A DNA stretch of 64,000 nt from Leucobacter zeae (lineage in GTDB: Bacteria; Actinomycetota; Actinomycetes; Actinomycetales; Microbacteriaceae). The notes under the pieces were generated by a model. That model did not search any database and was not told the DNA's origin. It saw nothing but the letters and a program-made list of their open reading frames with translations. This document shows positions 18,803 through 32,766 of this stretch, piece by piece; position 1 is the stretch's first letter, and each line of letters opens with the position of its first letter. The stretch is from NCBI RefSeq assembly GCF_016758175.1, contig NZ_QYAB01000003.1, forward strand, positions 310,001 through 374,000, in the 5' to 3' direction. The position numbers and the translations under genes are program-made.

Positions 18803-19872
18803 GCCCGGTTCCCGAGCGGCGCGAGCTCCGCCGCCCCGTCGGCGAGCAGCCGGTCCGAAACCGCGCGCCCGAGGCGCGCGGCGACGTCGTCCGTGGCGTC
18901 GCCGCGGGGCTCCCACGCGGCGTCGGCCGACGCGTCGAGACGCGCACCGCCGTCGAGCCGGTACACCGCCGCGCTCAGGCGCAAGCGCCCGCCCGACACC
19001 TCCGCGCGCGCTCCGACGGGAGCCGCGCAGCCGGCCTCGAGCGACGCGAGCAGCGCGCGCTCGGCGGCCGCGCAGGCGTGCGATGTCGGGTCGTCGAGCG
19101 CCGCGAGCGCCGTCCGGTAGGGATCGGAGGCGGCGTCGGCCGAGCGCACCTCGATGGCGAGCGCGCCCTGTCCCGGGGCCGTCGGCACCTCGGCGAGCGG
19201 GAAGCGCTCCGAGATGACGCCGCCGCGACCGAGCCGGTCGAGCCCCGCTGCCGCGAGCACGACGGCATCGAGGTCGTGCTCGATGCGGGCCAGACGGGTG
19301 TCGACGTTGCCCCGGATGTCCAGCACCTCGAGGTCGGGGCGACCGGCGAGGATCTGGGCCGCGCGCCGCGGCGAACCCGTGCCCACCTTCCCGCCGGCCG
19401 GCAGTTCCGCGAGGGGGACCCCGCCGCGGGAGCACAGCGCGTCCCGCGCGTCGGCGCGCTCGGGGATCGCCCCGATGACGATGCCGGGGCAGGCGCCGGT
19501 CGGGAGGTCCTTGAGCGAGTGCACCGCGAAGTCGCACTCGCCCGCGGCGAGCGCGTCGCGCAGCGCGCTCACGAACACGCCCGTGCCGCCGAGCTGCGCG
19601 AGCGGGGCCCGCGAGGTGTCGCCCTGCGTCGTGACGATCACGAGCGTCACGTCGAGGCCCGTGGCCGCCGCGATCGCCTCGGCCACCGTGGTCGTCTGCG
19701 CGACGGCGAGTGCGCTGCCGCGGGTGCCGATGCGCAGCAGCCCCGGGCGGGCCGCGACTGCGCCCACCGCTCGGGTGACGCGCCCGATCCGGCCCGGATC
19801 GGCGCCCCCGAATACGGAGTGCGTCGCCGGGGCGGGCAGCCGCGGGGCGGGGTCGGTGGCGTGAGCGTTCAT
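18799..19872 (-). CDS. hemC: Hydroxymethylbilane synthase (porphobilinogen deaminase)
   Basis: 357 residues, about 40 longer than usual because of an N-terminal extension (MNAHATDPAPRLPAPATHS). The enzyme core starts LLRIGTRGSALAVAQT. HSLKDLPTG, GTGSPRRAAQIL and the dipyrromethane-carrying Cys in LEAGCAAPVGA are all present. It links four porphobilinogens into hydroxymethylbilane for HemD. It overlaps hemY/cgoX upstream and hemD downstream, each by 4 nt. Confidence 0.95.
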   Translation of the reverse strand: MNAHATDPAPRLPAPATHSVFGGADPGRIGRVTRAVGAVAARPGLLRIGTRGSALAVAQTTTVAEAIAAATGLDVTLVIVTTQGDTSRAPLAQLGGTGVFVSALRDALAAGECDFAVHSLKDLPTGACPGIVIGAIPERADARDALCSRGGVPLAELPAGGKVGTGSPRRAAQILAGRPDLEVLDIRGNVDTRLARIEHDLDAVVLAAAGLDRLGRGGVISERFPLAEVPTAPGQGALAIEVRSADAASDPYRTALAALDDPTSHACAAAERALLASLEAGCAAPVGARAEVSGGRLRLSAAVYRLDGGARLDASADAAWEPRGDATDDVAARLGRAVSDRLLADGAAELAPLGNRA

Positions 19873-21476
19873 GAGCGTGCGGTTCCTTCGTACTGCGATG
19901 ATGCGGTGTGCGTGCTGCCGGGGACGGCGTTCGGATCGGAGCTGCCGGCCGCGTCGGGGCGCACGGCGCGGAGCAGGGTCAGTGCGATCGCCCGGGCGCC
20001 CGGAACGACGGACGCGATCCCCGCGCCGCTCACCCAGTCGCCGGCGGCCATGACGCCCGGCGGGAGATCGAGATCGACGGCTCCGGGCCCGGTCTGCGCG
20101 GTCGGTCCGACGCCCGGGTGCGGGATCGGGGTCGGCCAGCGGCGTCGCCGGCCTCCCGGATCTCCGCCCATCTCCCAGGTGCGTCGCACCATGCCGCGCA
20201 GCGAGGTCTCGGCGAGCCCGACGCCCAGGATGCGCGAGGCGTCCGCGACGGCGAGGCGGCGGACCGCCGCGTCGTCGAGTTCGAGCGTCTCGGGCCGCGC
20301 GCCGGCGCGACCGTACGAGAGGCGCAGGAGGTGCCGTCCCGGCCCGAAGTCCCGCGCACGCGCCGACCACTTCGCGGTGACGTGCGTGAGCGCCTTCGCC
20401 GCGATGGGGCCGTCGGGCTCCGGGATCAGCGCCCCCGTTCCCCGCGGCGCCCCGTCCAGCCGCTCGTCGTCGAGCACGAGGGCGACGATCTCGACGAGGT
20501 GTCCGGCATCGACATCGACATCGACGTCGGCGTCGACGCCGGCATCCGCATCGGCCCCCGGGGCGGGATCCTCGCCGGCGATCAGCCGTCGCACCGCCGC
20601 CTCCGGAACCGCGAGCACCGCGCCGTCGAACGCTTGTGCCCGCTCCGCGCCGTTCTCGACGACCAGGATCTCCGTGCCGCCTCCGGGTGCGGACCTCACG
20701 CGCTGCACCCTGGCCCCGAGCTCGACGCGCCCCCCGCGGTCCCCGAGATCGGCCGCGAGCGCGTCGATCAGCGAGGTCATGCCGCCGCTGAGCCCGGCGA
20801 CGGCGCCGCCCGCGGCGCGCGCGCTGCCGCGGAGCTCGCGCGCCGCGGCGATCAGGGAGCCGGTGCGCGCGAATGCGGACGCGAGGCCGGGGAGCGCGTC
20901 GAACGCGATGCGCTCGGGATCCGCCGAGTGCACGCCCAGCGCGACGGGGCGCACCAGCCGATCGAGCACCCGCCGCCCGAGGCGCGCGCGCACGACCCCG
21001 GCGAGCGACGGGGCCGCTTGGACGTCGGCGCGTGCCGGTCCGGCAGCTCCCGCGCCGACGCTCCGGGGCAGCAGGGGCTCGACCGCCGCGCGCAGCGCGC
21101 CGAGCACGCCGAGCGCGCGGAACGTGCTCCGCCCGAGCGGTTCGGCCGGAATGCCCAGCGTCCCCGCCCGGGGAAGCGGCGCCGCCCGCTCCGTCGTCAC
21201 GACCCAGGCGCCGGCGTCGGAGGGCGCCGTGATCTCGGCGTCCATTCCGAGCTCCGCGATCAGGTCGCGCACGGCGCCTCCGCGCGTCGCGAACGATTCC
21301 GCGCCGATGTCGAAGGCGACGCCGCAGGCCTCCGCGCTCCGGATCCTGCCGCCGAGACGGTCTCCGGATTCGAAGAGCGTCACCGTGCACCCCGCGAGCG
21401 CGAGCTCGCGCGCGGCGACGAGGCCCGAGACGCCGCCGCCCACGACCGCGACGCTGGCGGCGGGCTCAGCGGGCAT
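19869..21476 (-). CDS. hemY: Coproporphyrinogen III oxidase / protoporphyrinogen oxidase, HemY type
   Basis: 535 residues. A flavin amine-oxidase-like enzyme: FAD-binding Rossmann motif VAVVGGGVSGLVAARELALAG at the N-terminus and GVMAAGDWVSGAGIASVVPGARAIA near the C-terminus. In Actinomycetota this family acts as CgoX, oxidising coproporphyrinogen III to coproporphyrin III; that assignment rests on phylum knowledge. A Gly/Asp-rich insert (ADADAGVDADVDVDVDAG) occurs mid-protein. The ATG at 21476 lies inside the end of hemE (11-nt overlap). Confidence 0.9.
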   Translation of the reverse strand: MPAEPAASVAVVGGGVSGLVAARELALAGCTVTLFESGDRLGGRIRSAEACGVAFDIGAESFATRGGAVRDLIAELGMDAEITAPSDAGAWVVTTERAAPLPRAGTLGIPAEPLGRSTFRALGVLGALRAAVEPLLPRSVGAGAAGPARADVQAAPSLAGVVRARLGRRVLDRLVRPVALGVHSADPERIAFDALPGLASAFARTGSLIAAARELRGSARAAGGAVAGLSGGMTSLIDALAADLGDRGGRVELGARVQRVRSAPGGGTEILVVENGAERAQAFDGAVLAVPEAAVRRLIAGEDPAPGADADAGVDADVDVDVDAGHLVEIVALVLDDERLDGAPRGTGALIPEPDGPIAAKALTHVTAKWSARARDFGPGRHLLRLSYGRAGARPETLELDDAAVRRLAVADASRILGVGLAETSLRGMVRRTWEMGGDPGGRRRRWPTPIPHPGVGPTAQTGPGAVDLDLPPGVMAAGDWVSGAGIASVVPGARAIALTLLRAVRPDAAGSSDPNAVPGSTHTASSQYEGTARS

Positions 21477-22584
21477 GCACGAGTTCCACGACGCGGGTGA
21501 GCACCTCGGGGTCGGTCTCGGGCGGCACCCCGTGGCCCAGGTTCACGACGTGGCCGGGCGCGCGACGGCCGCGCTGCAGCACATCGTCGACGTGCGCCTC
21601 GAGCACGTCAGCCGGAGCGCCGAGGAACGCCGGATCCAGATTGCCCTGGAGCGGGATCGCGTCTCCGAGCCGACGGCTCGCGGCGTCGAGCGGCGTGCGC
21701 CAGTCGACCCCGATCGCGCTGACATCGAGCTCGGTGAACTCCTCGAGCAGATGCCCGGACCCCACGGCGAAGTGGAGGGTGGGCACGCGAGCGGGGCCCG
21801 AGGCGTACCCGTCCGAGGCGGGGTCGCAGTAGCGCATGCGGTGCACCGCGCCGAGCGCCCGTCGCGATGCCGGAGCCACATGCGCGCGGTAGTCGGCTGC
21901 GCTCAGAGAGCCCGCCCACGAGTCGAACAGCTGTACGGCGCTCGCTCCGGCCTCCACCTGCGCTTCGAGGAAGACGCCGCTGAGATCCGCGGCCCACTCG
22001 AGCAGCCCGCGCCAGGCCTCCGGGTCGGCGTGCATGAGGGTGCGGGCCCTGAGGTGATCGCGCGACGGGCCGCCCTCGACGAGGTAGGCCGCGAGCGTGA
22101 ACGGCGCGCCGGCGAAGCCGATGAGCGGGGTGTCGCCCAGCTCCCGCACGGTCAGGCGCACCGCCTCGCGCACGGGGTCGAGCGCCTCCCGCAGCCGCTC
22201 GGGGCCGAACTCCGCGCGGCACCGCGCGACATCGGCCGCGGAGCGGACCGGCTGCGCGAACACCGGTCCCCTCCCGGCGACGAGGTCGACATCGACGCCG
22301 GCGAGGAGCATCGGGACGACGATGTCGCTGAAGAATACCGCCGCATCGACGCCGTGCCTGCGCACCGGCTGCAGCGTGATCTCGCTCGCGAGCACCGGAT
22401 CGAGGCAGGCGTCGAGCATGCGGTGATCGGCGCGGATGCTCCGGTACTCGGGCAGCGATCGACCGGCCTGGCGCATGAACCACACCGGGGTGCGGTCGGG
22501 CCGATCGCCGCGCAGTGCGCGGACCAGCTGGGAGGAGTTCGTGCGGCCGGCGGCCAGGGGATGCGAGACTGGGAGCGTGTTCAT
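21466..22584 (-). CDS. hemE: Uroporphyrinogen decarboxylase
   Basis: 372 residues. HemE decarboxylates uroporphyrinogen III to coproporphyrinogen III. The signature TPVWFMRQAGRSLPEYR is at about residues 31-47. AAVFFSDIVVPMLLAGVDV, GFAGAPFTLAAYLVEGG and LFDSWAGSLSAADY are conserved, and GHVVNLGHGVPPETDPEVL closes the protein. It is the first gene of the six-gene heme operon. The ATG at 22584 has no Shine-Dalgarno sequence and lies within the first of three (C/G)ATC(A/T)GATG elements. Confidence 0.96.
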   Translation of the reverse strand: MNTLPVSHPLAAGRTNSSQLVRALRGDRPDRTPVWFMRQAGRSLPEYRSIRADHRMLDACLDPVLASEITLQPVRRHGVDAAVFFSDIVVPMLLAGVDVDLVAGRGPVFAQPVRSAADVARCRAEFGPERLREALDPVREAVRLTVRELGDTPLIGFAGAPFTLAAYLVEGGPSRDHLRARTLMHADPEAWRGLLEWAADLSGVFLEAQVEAGASAVQLFDSWAGSLSAADYRAHVAPASRRALGAVHRMRYCDPASDGYASGPARVPTLHFAVGSGHLLEEFTELDVSAIGVDWRTPLDAASRRLGDAIPLQGNLDPAFLGAPADVLEAHVDDVLQRGRRAPGHVVNLGHGVPPETDPEVLTRVVELVHAR

Positions 22585-22628
22585 CAGATGTGATGCTAGC
22601 TTATAGATCTGATGTGAAAGATCAGATG
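22582..22628. promoter_or_regulatory. Divergent hemE/hemA control region with three (C/G)ATC(A/T)GATG sites
   Basis: CATCAGATG (22582-22590), GATCTGATG (22606-22614) and GATCAGATG (22620-22628) share the core ATC(A/T)GATG. The last two form an inverted repeat ATCTGAT-n7-ATCAGAT. Opposed -10-like sequences lie between the sites: TATAAG for hemE (minus 22605-22600) and TATAGA for hemA (22602-22607). The layout fits one repressor or activator controlling both directions. The same motif occurs at 28036 in the siderophore gene promoter. Confidence 0.6.
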
Positions 22629-22699
22629 TGCTCAGCTTCGGGCGCGATCCTGACATCGATCCACGAAACCGCCTGATCGGGACCTCTTCGAGAAACTTC

Positions 22700-24037
22700 A
22701 TGCTGCTCTGCCTCTCCGTCGACCACCGGCGCGCTGACCTCGCGCTCCTCGAACGCATCGAGCGCCGTCTCGAACCGGTCACCGCGGCGCTCGGCGACCC
22801 CGGCACCGCCCGAGGCGCCGTCGTGCTCGCGACGTGCAACCGCTTCGAGGCGTACCTCGATGCGCCGGCGCTGGCCGCCGCACCGGGCGACGGCCTCTCC
22901 GACGGTGCAGGCGCCGCCCGAGACGAGGCCGTCGAACTCGTCGCGCGCGCCGCCGGCCTGACCCCTCAGGAGCTCGCCGGCGCCTGCACCGTGCACCGCG
23001 GGGACGCCGTGGCGGAGCACCTGTTCGCGGTCTCGAGCGGGCTGGAATCCGCCGCGGTGGGCGAGGGCGAGATCGCCGGGCAGGTGCGCCGTGCCCTCGA
23101 CGAGGCGCGGTCGCAGCGTCGGTCGAGCACGGAGCTCGAGCGGCTCTTCCAGCAGGCGATGGCGGTCTCCAAGCGGGTCAAGCAGGGCACCGGGCTGCAG
23201 ACGCGCGGCCGATCGCTCGTGCAGCTCGCGCTCGCCATGGTCGACAGCAGGGTCGGCGACTGGGCCTCGGCTCGGATCCTCCTGATCGGCACCGGGGCGT
23301 ACGCCGGCGCGAGCCTCGCCGCGCTGCGCGACCGAGGGGCGGGATCCGCCACCCTCGGCGGGACGCGCCGCGTCGGCGTCTACTCCCCCTCCGGGCGCGC
23401 GGAGGCCTTCGCCGAGTCCCACGGCATCCGCGCGGTGCTCGAGCACGAGCTCGACGACGAGCTGCGACGGTGCGACCTCGTCGTGGCCTGCAGCAGCGTG
23501 CACGAGCCGCTGCTCACCCGCGAGCGCTTCGACGAGACGGTGACCGAGGGCCTGCCGCCGTTCTGCGCGCGCTTCGGCGCCGACCTCGGGCCCGACGTCC
23601 CGAGCCGACGGCGCCCGCGCCTGCTCATCGACATGGGCCTCCCCCGGAACATCGCCCCCGACGTCGCCGGCGTCCAGGGGGTCGAGCTGCTCGATCTCGA
23701 GACCATCGCGCTGCACGCGCCGATCCCCGAGCTCCACGCAGAACTCGAGGCGCGCGACATCGTGCGCACCGCGGCGGCCGAATTCGCCGCGGCGCGCGCC
23801 GAGCGCGCGGCCGTGCCGGCCCTCCGGGAGCTCCGCGGCTCCTTCGACGAGGTGCTCGAGGAGGAGATCGCCCGGATGCGGGACCGGCGCCCCGAGGAGG
23901 CCGACGCGGTCGAGGCCGCGCTCCGTCATTTCGCGGGCAGGCTCCTCCACCGCCCGACCGTGCGCCTGCGCGAACTGGCCAGGAACGGCCGGGCCGACGA
24001 GGGGCTCGACGCCGTCTCCGCGCTCTTCGGGGCGTAG
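22700..24037 (+). CDS. hemA: Glutamyl-tRNA reductase
   Basis: 445 residues. HemA reduces Glu-tRNA to glutamate-1-semialdehyde with NADPH. The N-terminus MLLCLSVDHRRADLALLER and the catalytic Cys46 in VVLATCNRFEAYLD are as expected, followed by AVGEGEIAGQVRRALDEAR, the NADP-binding ARILLIGTGAYAGA and LLIDMGLPRNIAPDV. The C-terminal dimerisation helices are complete. The ATG at 22700 matches family starts; the transcript probably begins about 86 bases upstream within the shared operator region. Confidence 0.95.
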   Translation: MLLCLSVDHRRADLALLERIERRLEPVTAALGDPGTARGAVVLATCNRFEAYLDAPALAAAPGDGLSDGAGAARDEAVELVARAAGLTPQELAGACTVHRGDAVAEHLFAVSSGLESAAVGEGEIAGQVRRALDEARSQRRSSTELERLFQQAMAVSKRVKQGTGLQTRGRSLVQLALAMVDSRVGDWASARILLIGTGAYAGASLAALRDRGAGSATLGGTRRVGVYSPSGRAEAFAESHGIRAVLEHELDDELRRCDLVVACSSVHEPLLTRERFDETVTEGLPPFCARFGADLGPDVPSRRRPRLLIDMGLPRNIAPDVAGVQGVELLDLETIALHAPIPELHAELEARDIVRTAAAEFAAARAERAAVPALRELRGSFDEVLEEEIARMRDRRPEEADAVEAALRHFAGRLLHRPTVRLRELARNGRADEGLDAVSALFGA

Positions 24038-24079: not shown

Positions 24080-24877
24080 CTACGGACGGTAGTAGATCGC
24101 GACCCTGCGCCCGTCGTGCTCGACCACGTCGACCGGCGTCTCGAACACCCGCTCGAGCACCTCGGACGTGATGATCTCCTCCGGGGTCCCGGACGCGACG
24201 ACCGTCCCGCCCGCGAGGGCGACGATGCGGTCGGCGTAGGCCGCGGCGAAGTTGACGTCGTGGATCACGAGCACGACGGTCTTGCCGAGCGCGTCGGCGG
24301 CGGCGCGCACCTGCCCCATCATGCCGACCGCGTGACGCATGTCGAGCCCGGTGAGCGGCTCGTCGAGCAGCACGTACTCCGTGTCCTGCGCGAGCACCAT
24401 CGCCACGAAGGCGCGCTGCCGCTGGCCGCCCGAGAGCTCGTCGATGAACCGATCCTCCATGCCCGCGAGGTCGAGGAACGCGATGGCCGCGTGGATCGCG
24501 CGCCGGTCGGTTTCGGTGAGGCGCCCTCCCGAGTGCGGGAACCGCCCGAAGGCCACGAGCTGGCGCACCGTGAGACGCGCCATGAAGTGGTTCTCCTGCT
24601 TGAGGATCGCGACCGCCCTGGCGAACTCGCGGGACTTCGCCGAGCGGACGTCGAGGCCGCCGACCGACACCCGACCGCTGTCGGCTTCGAGCAGCCGCCC
24701 GATGATCGTGAGCATCGTCGACTTCCCGGCGCCGTTCGGCCCGATGAGGGCGGTCACGCCCCCGCGCTCGATCGTGAGGTCGACCGGACCCAGGACATGC
24801 CTCCCGGCGTATATCTTCTCGACGCCGCGCAGCACGATGCCGCTCCGGTCGGTCTCGACGGCGGCGGTTCCGCTCAC
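24080..24877 (-). CDS. Siderophore ABC transporter, ATPase subunit
   Basis: 265 residues. All ABC ATPase motifs are present: Walker A GPNGAGKST, Q-loop AILKQENHF, signature LSGGQRQRA, Walker B YVLLDEP and the switch His in VLVIHDVN. It closely resembles iron-siderophore ATPases of the FecE/YclP/CeuD type. The GTG at 24877 overlaps the permease stop (GTGA). It is the last gene of an operon in the order binding protein, permease, permease, ATPase. Confidence 0.92.
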   Translation of the reverse strand: MSGTAAVETDRSGIVLRGVEKIYAGRHVLGPVDLTIERGGVTALIGPNGAGKSTMLTIIGRLLEADSGRVSVGGLDVRSAKSREFARAVAILKQENHFMARLTVRQLVAFGRFPHSGGRLTETDRRAIHAAIAFLDLAGMEDRFIDELSGGQRQRAFVAMVLAQDTEYVLLDEPLTGLDMRHAVGMMGQVRAAADALGKTVVLVIHDVNFAAAYADRIVALAGGTVVASGTPEEIITSEVLERVFETPVDVVEHDGRRVAIYYRP

Positions 24878-25902
24878 CGCAACCCCTTTCTCAGCAGGAC
24901 GGTCAGGAAGAGGAGCCCGCCGCCGAATTCGATGATCACCGTGACGAGACCGCCCGCGGCGAAGACATGCTTCAATACGAATGTCGCGAGCAGCAGGGTC
25001 GCGAGCCCGATGGCGATGGCCATCGGGATGACCTCGGCGTGACCGTCGCCCCGAGAGAACTGGTAGGCGAGCGTCGCGACGAGGAAGCCGTAGAACGTCA
25101 TCGGGCCGACCATGGTCGCCGAGACCGAGACGAGCACCGAGACCATGACGAGGATCCCGATCACCTCGCTCCGGTAGTCGACGCCCAGCCCGATCGCCGT
25201 GTCCTTGCCGAGCGCGACCACGTCGTAGGTGCGCCGGCGCGCCCAGACGATCCCGAGCACGATGAGCACGAGAGCGGCCGCGATCGGCAGGTAGTCGGGG
25301 TTTCCGCGGCCGATGCTGCCGAAGAGCCGAGCGCTCAGCACGTCGAACTCGCTCGGCGTGAGCGTGCGCTGCATGAACATCGACACCGAGCCGAACCCGA
25401 TGCCGAGCACGACCCCGACGAGCAGCAGCAGATGCAGGTTCGCGAGCCTGCCCGAGAACAGCCACCCGTAGAGCAGCGTCGCGAACAGCACCATCAGCGC
25501 GCTCTGGATGACGATCTTCGGGATGCCCTCGAGGTGCACCGCTGCCGTGCCGAAGACGTAGACGAGCGCCGTCTGCATGAGCACGTAGAGCGCGTCGAAA
25601 CCGAGGATCGACGGGGTCAGGATCCGGTTGGCCGTCGCGGTGTGGAAGATCACGGTCGCGAGGCCCTGGCTCACCGCGACGAGCGCGATCGTGCCGAGCG
25701 AGACGAGGCGCGACTGCGCGATGATCCAGAACCCCTGGCTGCCGAACGGAGCGGGGTTGCCGTACACCAGGATCGCGATCGCGCAGGCGAGCGCGACGGC
25801 GGAGACACACGCGAGCGGCAGGGCGCGGCGCCAGCGGGCCGCGGCGGTCTCGGCGACGATGGGCGGCTCGCCCGTGCTCGCGAGTCTGACGATGCTCTCC
25901 AT
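24874..25902 (-). CDS. Siderophore ABC transporter, permease 2 (FecCD family)
   Basis: 342 residues with about nine or ten hydrophobic segments and the FecCD hallmarks ILTPSILGFDALYVLMQTALVYVFG and GPMTFYGFLVATLAYQ. A hydrophilic N-terminal stretch of about 30 residues precedes the first helix. It pairs with the next permease to form the membrane channel. Stop and start codons overlap with both neighbours, so the four proteins are translationally coupled. Confidence 0.9.
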   Translation of the reverse strand: MESIVRLASTGEPPIVAETAAARWRRALPLACVSAVALACAIAILVYGNPAPFGSQGFWIIAQSRLVSLGTIALVAVSQGLATVIFHTATANRILTPSILGFDALYVLMQTALVYVFGTAAVHLEGIPKIVIQSALMVLFATLLYGWLFSGRLANLHLLLLVGVVLGIGFGSVSMFMQRTLTPSEFDVLSARLFGSIGRGNPDYLPIAAALVLIVLGIVWARRRTYDVVALGKDTAIGLGVDYRSEVIGILVMVSVLVSVSATMVGPMTFYGFLVATLAYQFSRGDGHAEVIPMAIAIGLATLLLATFVLKHVFAAGGLVTVIIEFGGGLLFLTVLLRKGLR

Positions 25903-26897
25903 CAGCCCGCCCGCCGCTGCCGCAGCAGCAGCGCGATGAAGATCACCGCGCCGACCAGGCCGAGCACCATCGAGACGGGGATCTCGAACGGCATGATGAT
26001 CGTGCGCCCGATCAGATCGCACGCCACGACGAGGGCGATGCCCCCGAGGCAGACCCACGGCAGGTTGCCGCGCACATCGTCGCCGCGGAGCATCGAGACG
26101 ATGTTCGGCACCACGAGCCCGAGCAGCGGCAGCAGTCCGACCACGACCGTGGTGACGCCGGCCGCCACGGCCACGAGCGCCGTGCCGCCGATGAGGATCC
26201 GCTCGTACTTCGCACCGACGCTGGTCGCCACGTCCTTGCCGAGACCGGCGACCGTGATGCGATCTGCCATGAGGAACACGAGCAGCGTCACGACGGCCAC
26301 GATCCAGAGCACCTCGTACCGCCCGCGCACGACGGCGGTGAAACTGCCCATGAACCACGTCCCGAGCATCTGAAGCAGGTTGAACTGCGCGGCGAGGAAC
26401 GTCGTGAGCGCGCTCACGACCGCGCCCAGCATGATCCCGATCAGCGGGACGACGAGCGTCGTGCGGATCACGACCCTGCGGAGGATCAGCATGAACGTCA
26501 TGGCGCCGATGAACGCGAAGCAGCTCGCGACCACCATCTTGCCCACGAGCCCGACGCCGGGCAGCAGCAGGGTCGTGAGCAGGAGCCCGAGCGATGCCCA
26601 CTCGGTGGTGCCCGACGTCGTCGCGTCGACGAAGCGGTTCTGGGTGAGCATCTGCATGACGAGGCCGCTCGTCGCCATCGCGGCCCCGGCCAGCACGAGC
26701 GCGACGGTGCGCGGCACCCGCGTGATCCAGAACATCTCGGCTCCGAACTCCTGCGAGCGCAGATCGTAGACGCCGACGAGCACGGAGGCCGCGAGCAGCG
26801 CGAGCACGACGAGCACGCCGAGGGCGAGGCGCCCGGACCACCGTCCGGGCGCCTCGCCGACCGACCCGTCGCGGGCCGTCACCGCGGTCCGACTCAT
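25902..26897 (-). CDS. Siderophore ABC transporter, permease 1 (FecCD family)
   Basis: 331 residues. A polytopic FecCD permease: RVPRTVALVLAGAAMATSGLVMQMLTQNRFVDATTSG is the classic conserved helix pair, and LLPLLGLVVPNIVSMLRGDD is the coupling loop that contacts the ATPase. LGKDVATSVG is the usual cytoplasmic loop. The ATG at 26897 overlaps the binding-protein stop (ATGA). Confidence 0.92.
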   Translation of the reverse strand: MSRTAVTARDGSVGEAPGRWSGRLALGVLVVLALLAASVLVGVYDLRSQEFGAEMFWITRVPRTVALVLAGAAMATSGLVMQMLTQNRFVDATTSGTTEWASLGLLLTTLLLPGVGLVGKMVVASCFAFIGAMTFMLILRRVVIRTTLVVPLIGIMLGAVVSALTTFLAAQFNLLQMLGTWFMGSFTAVVRGRYEVLWIVAVVTLLVFLMADRITVAGLGKDVATSVGAKYERILIGGTALVAVAAGVTTVVVGLLPLLGLVVPNIVSMLRGDDVRGNLPWVCLGGIALVVACDLIGRTIIMPFEIPVSMVLGLVGAVIFIALLLRQRRAG

Positions 26898-27892
26898 GCG
26901 GCCGAGAAGGCGTCCTCCAGCTGCTGGAACAGCTCGGTGTAGGCGTGGATCCCCTCGGTCAGGTAGAAGTTCGGGTCGAGCACCACGATGCGGTCCTGCT
27001 GCACGGCGGGGACCTTCTGCAGCGCCTCGGACTTCGCGATGAGCTCCTCGGCGGGGACCGACCCCGGCTCGCGCTCCTCGGGCACGAATGCGGCATCGCG
27101 ATCGAGCGCGACGATCCAGTCGGGGTTCGAGTCGGCGATCGCCTCGACCGAGATGTCGTCCCCCTGGTGGTCGTTCGTCGCGCCCTCGACCTCGAGCGCG
27201 GGCTTCCATCCGAGGATCGGGAACACCGGGCCGATGGCGCGGCCGACCTCGGGCGCGATGTAGCCGATCTGCCCGGCGGAGGTGTTGACGGCCATCACGG
27301 TGTCGGAGCCGTTGTAGGCCTCCTTCGCGCCGGCGATCGCCTCGTCGAGCTCTCCGCTCAGCGCCGATGCCTCCTCCTCGCGATCGAAGATCTGGCCGAG
27401 GATCTCGGTCTGGCGCTTGAGCTCTGAGACCTCGTCCTCGCCCTCGCGCGGCGCGATCTCGATGACCGCGGCCTGCGGGTTCTGCTTCTTGATCTCGTCC
27501 GTGAAGTCGGCGAAGCGGTAGCCGCTGATGATGAGGTCGGGCTGCTCGGCAACGATCGTCTCGAGGTTCGGCTCGCGGTGGTTGCCGACGTTCGCGACGT
27601 CCTCGTCCTCGGTGTAGCGCGGCCACACGGTGCCCATCACGTCCTTGGGAGCGGCGACGAGGTCGATGTCCCACTCCTCGAGCGTGTCGAAGACCGTGTT
27701 GTCGAGCGCGACCACCTTCTCGGGATCGACCGGAACCTCCACCTCGCCGTGGTTGTCGGTGATCGTCACGGTGCCCGCCTCGGTCTTCGGCTGCTCGGCT
27801 TCGGCGGCCCCCGAGGAGCAGGAGGCGAGCAGGAAGGCGGCTCCCAGCGCGAGGGCTGCGGCCGGGGCGGTACGGGAGAGGCGATGGGACAC
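26894..27892 (-). CDS. Siderophore-binding lipoprotein (FatB/YclQ/CeuE-like)
   Basis: 332 residues. The signal peptide ends in the lipobox LLASCSSG, so it is membrane-anchored outside the cell. The periplasmic-binding fold of the iron-siderophore type follows: VTITDNHGEVEVPVDPEKVVALDNTVFDTLEEWDI, then VGNHREPNLETIVAEQPDLIISGYRF. Order and sequence resemble catechol-siderophore systems (Ycl, Ceu), so a catecholate or related ferric chelate is a reasonable guess. GTG start with GAGG 7 nt upstream. Its leader has a palindrome over the promoter and two hairpins. Confidence 0.92.
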   Translation of the reverse strand: MSHRLSRTAPAAALALGAAFLLASCSSGAAEAEQPKTEAGTVTITDNHGEVEVPVDPEKVVALDNTVFDTLEEWDIDLVAAPKDVMGTVWPRYTEDEDVANVGNHREPNLETIVAEQPDLIISGYRFADFTDEIKKQNPQAAVIEIAPREGEDEVSELKRQTEILGQIFDREEEASALSGELDEAIAGAKEAYNGSDTVMAVNTSAGQIGYIAPEVGRAIGPVFPILGWKPALEVEGATNDHQGDDISVEAIADSNPDWIVALDRDAAFVPEEREPGSVPAEELIAKSEALQKVPAVQQDRIVVLDPNFYLTEGIHAYTELFQQLEDAFSAA

Positions 27893-28012: not shown

Positions 28013-28049
28013 TGAAGTGAGCCTATGCTCACCTTCATCTGATGTTCAA
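28013..28049 (-). promoter_or_regulatory. Promoter and operators of the siderophore operon
   Basis: On the minus strand TTGAAC (28049-28044) and ATAGGC (28026-28021) are 17 nt apart. CATCTGATG (28036-28044) lies just inside the -35 and matches the hem operator motif. A near-palindrome, TGAAGTGAGC (28013-28022) and GCTCACCTTCA (28027-28037), covers the -10. Two overlapping operators suggest control by iron and possibly heme. Confidence 0.5.
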
Positions 28050-32757: not shown

Positions 32758-32766
32758 ATTATGAAA
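32748..32766. promoter_or_regulatory. LysR-type operator between regulator and decarboxylase
   Basis: TTTCATACATATTATGAAA is a perfect 7-bp inverted repeat with 5-nt spacer. It contains the T-N11-A signature of LysR boxes and overlaps the regulator's own start. The surrounding sequence is AT-rich compared with the rest of the window. Confidence 0.6.

Follow-up and report, generated by a model that had tools for sequence, protein, structure and literature searches.

Our results indicate that a short palindromic element between the divergent genes hemE and hemA of Leucobacter zeae is a genuine and conserved operator within a heme-iron regulon. Judged from sequence, the full site is about TTCATCWGATGAA, and it is probably read by a small family of one-component FCD-GntR regulators, here called GntR-A and GntR-B, which are the best candidate readers. 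A sequence-only reading of the window, by which we mean the whole stretch of 64,000 nucleotides that was analysed (G+C, 71%; genome, 3.47 Mb), had proposed that the element could be the operator of an undescribed regulator acting on heme synthesis and iron import together. The placement of the element and its conservation support that proposal, to which the two GntR proteins now add a candidate. The features of the window are as follows.

22580..22592, no strand assigned: operator copy a, TTCATCAGATGTG, with the palindromic core CATCAGATG at 22582-22590.
22604..22616, no strand assigned: operator copy b, TAGATCTGATGTG, first of a 14-bp pair, with an ATCWGATG core at 22607-22614.
22618..22630, no strand assigned: operator copy c, AAGATCAGATGTG, second of the 14-bp pair, with an ATCWGATG core at 22621-22628.
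28034..28046, no strand assigned: operator copy d, with a core of the CTTCATCTGATGTTC type and the palindrome CATCTGATG at 28036-28044.
28013..28031, no strand assigned: DtxR/IdeR-like box adjoining copy d, matching the consensus at 13/19 positions.
21466..22584, minus strand: hemE, uroporphyrinogen decarboxylase, first gene of the heme operon (TIGR01464, above cut-off).
19869..21476, minus strand: hemY-like protoporphyrinogen/coproporphyrinogen oxidase, 3' of hemE (best models below their curated cut-offs).
22700..24037, plus strand: hemA, glutamyl-tRNA reductase (NF000750 and TIGR01035, above cut-off).
26894..27892, minus strand: siderophore-type ABC substrate-binding protein (SstD, IsdE and FecB-like models, all below curated cut-offs).
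24080..26899, ends approximate, minus strand: a pair of FecCD-like permeases with an iron-siderophore ATPase, following the binding protein (model matches).

The three ATCWGATG cores between hemE and hemA, and the fourth near the siderophore-binding protein gene, lie where the earlier reading had placed them. Copy a runs across the start codon of hemE (ATG on the minus strand, 22584-22582), and copy d is located 144 bp upstream of the start of the siderophore-binding protein. The same reading had described an inverted repeat, ATCTGAT-n7-ATCAGAT; the pair is present, with its members 14 bp apart, and each core is itself palindromic around a central A/T, so that the pair formed by b and c is as much a tandem as an inverted repeat. 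No clear ribosome-binding site is visible by eye before the hemE start (22582-22590), and the hemE mRNA may be leaderless.

Within the window alone, the excess of the motif is weak and unconvincing by itself: ATCWGATG gives 6 strand-matches against a mean of 2.25 in shuffled sequence, and 6 of 100 shuffles reach 6. When the window was scanned with an operator profile, copy d was the top match, though it had itself been included in the profile, which is partly circular in that the core was the selection key and many sites of relatives had been picked by an 11- or 13-mer. The fifth-best profile match, TCATACATATTATGAAAGT at 32759, has a score within the range of shuffled sequences. In the whole genome there are 79 strand-matches to ATCWGATG at 59 places, about as many as the shuffled window predicts; the informative features are therefore the placement and the extended palindrome, and not the raw count. 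Most of the 39 non-palindromic places are found in coding sequence, and the bare 8-mer was dropped as a search key for this reason and replaced by 9-, 11- and 13-mers. A fixed spacing between the core and a -10 element was also examined by eye and abandoned as too loose. The other 20 places carry the palindrome CATCWGATG; a control palindrome of equal composition, CTCAWTGAG, occurs at 8 places genome-wide (4 inside unrelated genes, 4 where gene calling failed), and read backwards at 3.

The palindromes are not randomly placed in the genome, as 13 of the 20 are located at heme, iron-uptake or iron-enzyme genes. Genes were called with a simple codon-usage script and Pfam; the script failed in stretches of low G+C content, and some neighbours were named by eye. 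The targets are hemE (copy a), the siderophore-binding protein of the window (28036), two siderophore-interacting proteins, SIP (L003, L007), hemQ (L014), an htaA locus (L018/L329), cydD (L031, with the site on its start codon), a second siderophore-binding protein (L032, two copies beside a DtxR-like box), hemH and FTR1/efeU (L033), aconitase (L328) and sdhC (L053). Some of these targets may be misassigned, since the copies at the second SIP gene and aconitase fall within the last part of the open frame before them, and a divergent sugar-nucleotide gene shares the sdhC copy. Five of the remaining seven palindromes are within genes (L005, L035/L328, L040, L044, L052), a sixth coincides with an apparent start codon (L010), and the last is intergenic and unexplained (L054). 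A copy at a third siderophore-binding protein gene (SBP3 copy a, L328 12637) was considered as a promoter site and excluded from the 13 because it is inside the gene; it nevertheless forms part of the profile. Copies at L010, G045, G046 (L326) and G052 overlap stop or start codons. No link to heme or iron was found for the places L002, L016, L020, L022, L023, L045, L052 (6895), L054, L055 and L056, and no site at a heme oxygenase or heme exporter gene was met among the places examined. Non-palindromic copies in siderophore-type loci adjoin DtxR-like boxes at L041 and L048. As separate observations, ATCAGATGAAAGTAAGGG at L045:1920 precedes a secreted FG-GAP repeat protein of unknown role, and in L328:5000-13700 (C1 of the same genome, ~1.940-1.949 Mb) codon-usage gene calls mostly fail; the latter region holds a siderophore-binding protein and an iron-type ATPase and is perhaps a foreign siderophore cluster.

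The element is conserved in relatives with the same gene order. Searches of 25 genomes of the genus identified hemA in 22, and all 22 carry ATCWGAT within 330 bp upstream of hemA when read in gene orientation; it was not found upstream of hemA in 8 genomes of other families. The hemA matches are missing from G002, G010 and G011, the last of which is 100% complete, and these members of the genus are possible heme auxotrophs. The nearest named hemA loci are those of L. chironomi, L. celer and L. massiliensis. Among 80 named hemA loci, the motif is present in 11 of the 12 titled Leucobacter; the exception, L199, belongs to a metagenome bin, in whose assembly GntR-A is found with an adjoining motif pair. 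The motif was found in none of the other 68 named loci, of which L179 is covered for only ~180 bp, and the tested genomes among them are also without a candidate GntR. Two layouts are found between hemE and hemA, either the 14-bp pair, kept in 16 of the 22 genus genomes with hemA (in one as a one-letter variant), or two copies 23-25 bp apart, mostly TTCATCWGATGA. Sites at heme genes often take the form (A)(C/G)ATCWGAT(C/G)(T) in 14-bp tandems, and in Leucobacter with GntR-B only, the position of copy a reads TTCATCAGATGA(A).

A candidate reader is encoded beside one of the targets. In the L. zeae genome, a copy of the motif separates hemH from the divergent FCD-GntR gene GntR-A (L033:1098-1862). 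The GntR winged helix (PF00392) is present in GntR-A, in the related GntR of G054, in the Georgenia-like GntR and, by precomputed Pfam assignments, in relatives of GntR-B; the candidate proteins also carry the FCD effector domain (PF07729). Their closest solved sequences are ordinary GntR regulators. Orthologues of GntR-A (at least 64% identity) were found in 18 of the 25 genus genomes, and a second GntR, 47-53% identical, in all 25 (this is GntR-B where tree-tested). In 16 of the 18, GntR-A adjoins a gene for hemH (six genomes), hemQ (two) or an iron-type binding protein (eight), and two show no such link; these neighbours were partly named by inspection, with five confirmed by Pfam.

The presence of GntR-A largely follows the layout of the sites. 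The 14-bp pair was found in 23 genomes (G000, G001, G003, G004, G006, G008, G012-G017, G019, G020, G022, G023, G181, G085, G147, G236, G238, G243 and G246; G014 by a one-letter variant), all of which carry GntR-A. The 23-25-bp layout was found in eight (G005, G007, G009, G018, G021, G024, G225 and G081), and seven of these are without GntR-A. The eighth, G007, has GntR-A with a 24-bp layout, and the check in gene orientation that revealed this ruled out a perfect match between GntR-A and the 14-bp layout. G085 and G147 have GntR-A only; the Canibacter-like G175 and G220 have only a B-type GntR, yet carry 14-bp pairs at hemH. The association of GntR-A with the 14-bp pair is thus strong, if imperfect.

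Outside Leucobacter, the same adjacency is met. G054 and G075, of two other genera, harbor a related GntR, 43-44% identical to GntR-B, divergent from the ferrochelatase gene, and all exact copies of TCATCWGATGA in G054 (two) and G075 (three) are located between these two genes. A protein matching the GntR of G075 at E <= 1e-35 is present in 7 of 396 genomes of the order (L. zeae included). Four of these belong to another family, and their GntR shares 85-87% identity with the Georgenia wutianyii protein; in three of these four Georgenia-like genomes the gene is divergent from hemH across CTTCATCTGATGTTAC, and in the fourth, G500, it adjoins a hemin-type transporter, with the motif absent there. 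The Georgenia-like genomes hold no exact TCATCWGATGA. In the 450 bp upstream of hemH, ATCWGAT was found in none of 11 GntR-lacking genomes (12 loci), and it is present in the GntR-bearing G000, G085, G147, G175, G220 and G054. For G075 the motif is present between the GntR and ferrochelatase genes, outside the 450-bp stretch read. One-letter variants occur upstream of hemH in G181 and three g79 genomes. No ATCWGAT was seen there in the GntR-bearing G005, G011, G055, G081 and G225, several of which have hemH inside an operon. G044, G062 and G119 have no hemH match and so are outside this comparison; these small GntR-bearing genomes of Microbacteriaceae are possible heme auxotrophs.

The motif and the GntR also occur together across the family. 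Among 199 genomes of Microbacteriaceae, 19 carry a GntR matching GntR-B at E <= 1e-30. TTCATCWGATGAA was found in 12 genomes, 11 of the 19 GntR-bearing ones against 1 of the 180 others (Fisher, 2.4e-12), or, counted by genus, in 6 of 9 bearing against 1 of 69 other genera (Fisher, 2.2e-6); the 13-mer was defined with G054 and G075 already in view, the 199 genomes include both, and kinship is handled by the genus count only. In the sole GntR-lacking genome with TTCATCWGATGAA, G079, the site is inside an open frame. Of the places in bearing genomes, 18 of 19 are at heme, iron, aconitase, sdh or cytochrome genes: between GntR and ferrochelatase (two each in G054 and G075), between hemE and hemA (two each in G005, G225 and G081), at aconitase (G005, G220), at sdhC (G175, G044), at a cytochrome oxidase/diheme cytochrome c operon named by inspection (G220), at SIP (G000) and at an AraC gene before a siderophore-binding protein (G085, G147). 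The exception is located before an aquaporin-type gene in G175. In L339 and L340 (G085 and G147), TTCATCTGATGAA overlaps the start codon of the AraC-type regulator, as do the copies at hemE and cydD. The other eight bearing genomes (G011, G181, G055, G062, G102, G119, G159 and G205) lack the exact 13-mer; some have variant sites, and none were seen in G055 and G062. The shorter TCATCWGATGA is found at 36 places in 13 bearing genomes, of which three in G055, one in G062 and one in G024 are not at heme or iron genes, and at 7 places in 11 GntR-lacking genomes. Two of these 7 are intragenic, three overlap stop or start codons, and the other two precede an alcohol dehydrogenase and a transporter permease of unknown substrate.

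The signal to which such regulators respond may be heme or iron. Cys-Pro is a heme regulatory motif. Among the best 120 of 2,263 homologues of GntR-B, Cys-Pro is present in 118 and C-x2-C-P in 103, and this loop of the GntR-B branch may be taken as a hint of heme sensing. In the structural model of GntR-B (mean, 81.7) the loop has a pLDDT below 50. GntR-A has a conserved Cys without Pro, and the Cys is missing in G085 and G147.

A number of the sites lie beside boxes of the DtxR type. A DtxR-like box, scored at >=13/19 against the DtxR/IdeR consensus, a score reached by 1.0% of 3,021 control windows, was found within ~45 bp at 7 of 24 tested sites, all of them in siderophore or heme-uptake loci, and in G225 a TTAGGTTAGGCTAAC box that precedes a siderophore-binding protein gene has a copy of the motif on either side. 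A TTAGGTTAGSCTAACCTAA-like box was not found at heme-synthesis sites, which match that consensus at only 9-11/19, in agreement with the earlier view that the motif is unlike that consensus. When all 24 sites were scored, no box was found at heme-synthesis, aconitase, sdh, cydD or SIP sites (7-11/19).

It is very unlikely that the motif is part of the DtxR/IdeR response, either as an extension of the box or as a partner site read by DtxR. The boxes at uptake and siderophore sites and the flanked box of G225 would fit this explanation, but the low scores at heme-synthesis, aconitase, sdh, cydD and SIP sites do not, and the motif is absent from most of the Microbacteriaceae, a family in which DtxR-type regulators are expected. 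A chance cluster of a word common in the genome is more improbable still: the shuffles that reach the window count, and the many non-palindromic copies in coding sequence, speak for it, but it is contradicted by the conservation between hemE and hemA, the enrichment of targets and the co-occurrence with GntR.

Somewhat less remote, though still improbable, is an operator that is real and read by another regulator of the same species distribution, such as an HrrA-like response regulator, the GntR being an incidental neighbour of heme genes. The target list does resemble that of HrrA in Corynebacterium glutamicum, which includes hemE, hemA, hemH, hemQ, ctaE-qcrCAB, heme uptake and cydAB, some of these genes also being under DtxR (PMC7337898). 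Against such a regulator, motif and GntR coincide across 78 genera, in several lineages the motif separates the GntR gene from a divergent ferrochelatase gene, and the exact 11-mers of G054 and G075 are found only there, as for a local, self-controlled repressor.

Taking the FCD-GntR family as the reader, a GntR dimer would bind each palindrome. As the sites overlap the start codon (hemE) or lie in or just upstream of the promoter region, repression would be the most likely action, relieved or imposed by heme or iron status. The operator lies beside a DtxR-like box in several uptake promoters, which would place those genes under double control, responding to iron via DtxR and also to GntR, and heme synthesis, aconitase and sdh would be governed by the GntR regulator without DtxR.

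Such a system would work like HrrSA without being classed as a member of it, because the type of protein differs. The likeness is one of targets only, namely the overlapping genes and the overlap with DtxR (PMC7337898); HrrA is a response regulator with a sensor kinase, whereas the candidate here is a one-component FCD-GntR, and siderophore uptake, SIP, efeU and aconitase are further targets here. With FCD (FadR) GntR regulators the candidates share the winged helix, the FCD domain and a putative palindromic operator beside a divergent target gene; they would differ in their heme-synthesis targets and differ in the Cys-Pro loop of the B branch. With DtxR/IdeR they would have siderophore and heme-uptake targets in common, with the boxes side by side, but the site is another one and no box accompanies it at heme-synthesis, aconitase and sdh sites. 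No FCD-GntR regulator of heme synthesis was found in open-licence PubMed Central, which leaves out bioRxiv and the bulk of subscription journals. According to a 2024 review, the Actinomycetota in which the regulation of heme synthesis is known are C. glutamicum and C. diphtheriae; by word count, the text of the review does not contain "GntR" (PMC10991733).

We tentatively raise the possibility, to which we give somewhat less than even weight, that a Cys-Pro-marked, heme/iron-sensing branch of FCD-GntR proteins is the main heme/iron regulator in Leucobacter, Canibacter-like, Georgenia-like and other genera, in the role that HrrSA has in Corynebacterium. After duplication, GntR-A would have moved to 14-bp tandems and heme synthesis, and GntR-B would have retained TTCATCWGATGAA, alongside DtxR, at the genes for iron uptake, aconitase and sdh. 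How heme synthesis, heme uptake and iron are balanced in Actinobacteria outside Corynebacterium is little described, and a GntR with a clear operator and a target list offers a testable second solution beside that of Corynebacterium, and possibly a new use of the FCD domain. With two paralogues and mostly different site layouts, these organisms may offer a natural example of a regulator and its operator that changed in step after duplication of the regulator.
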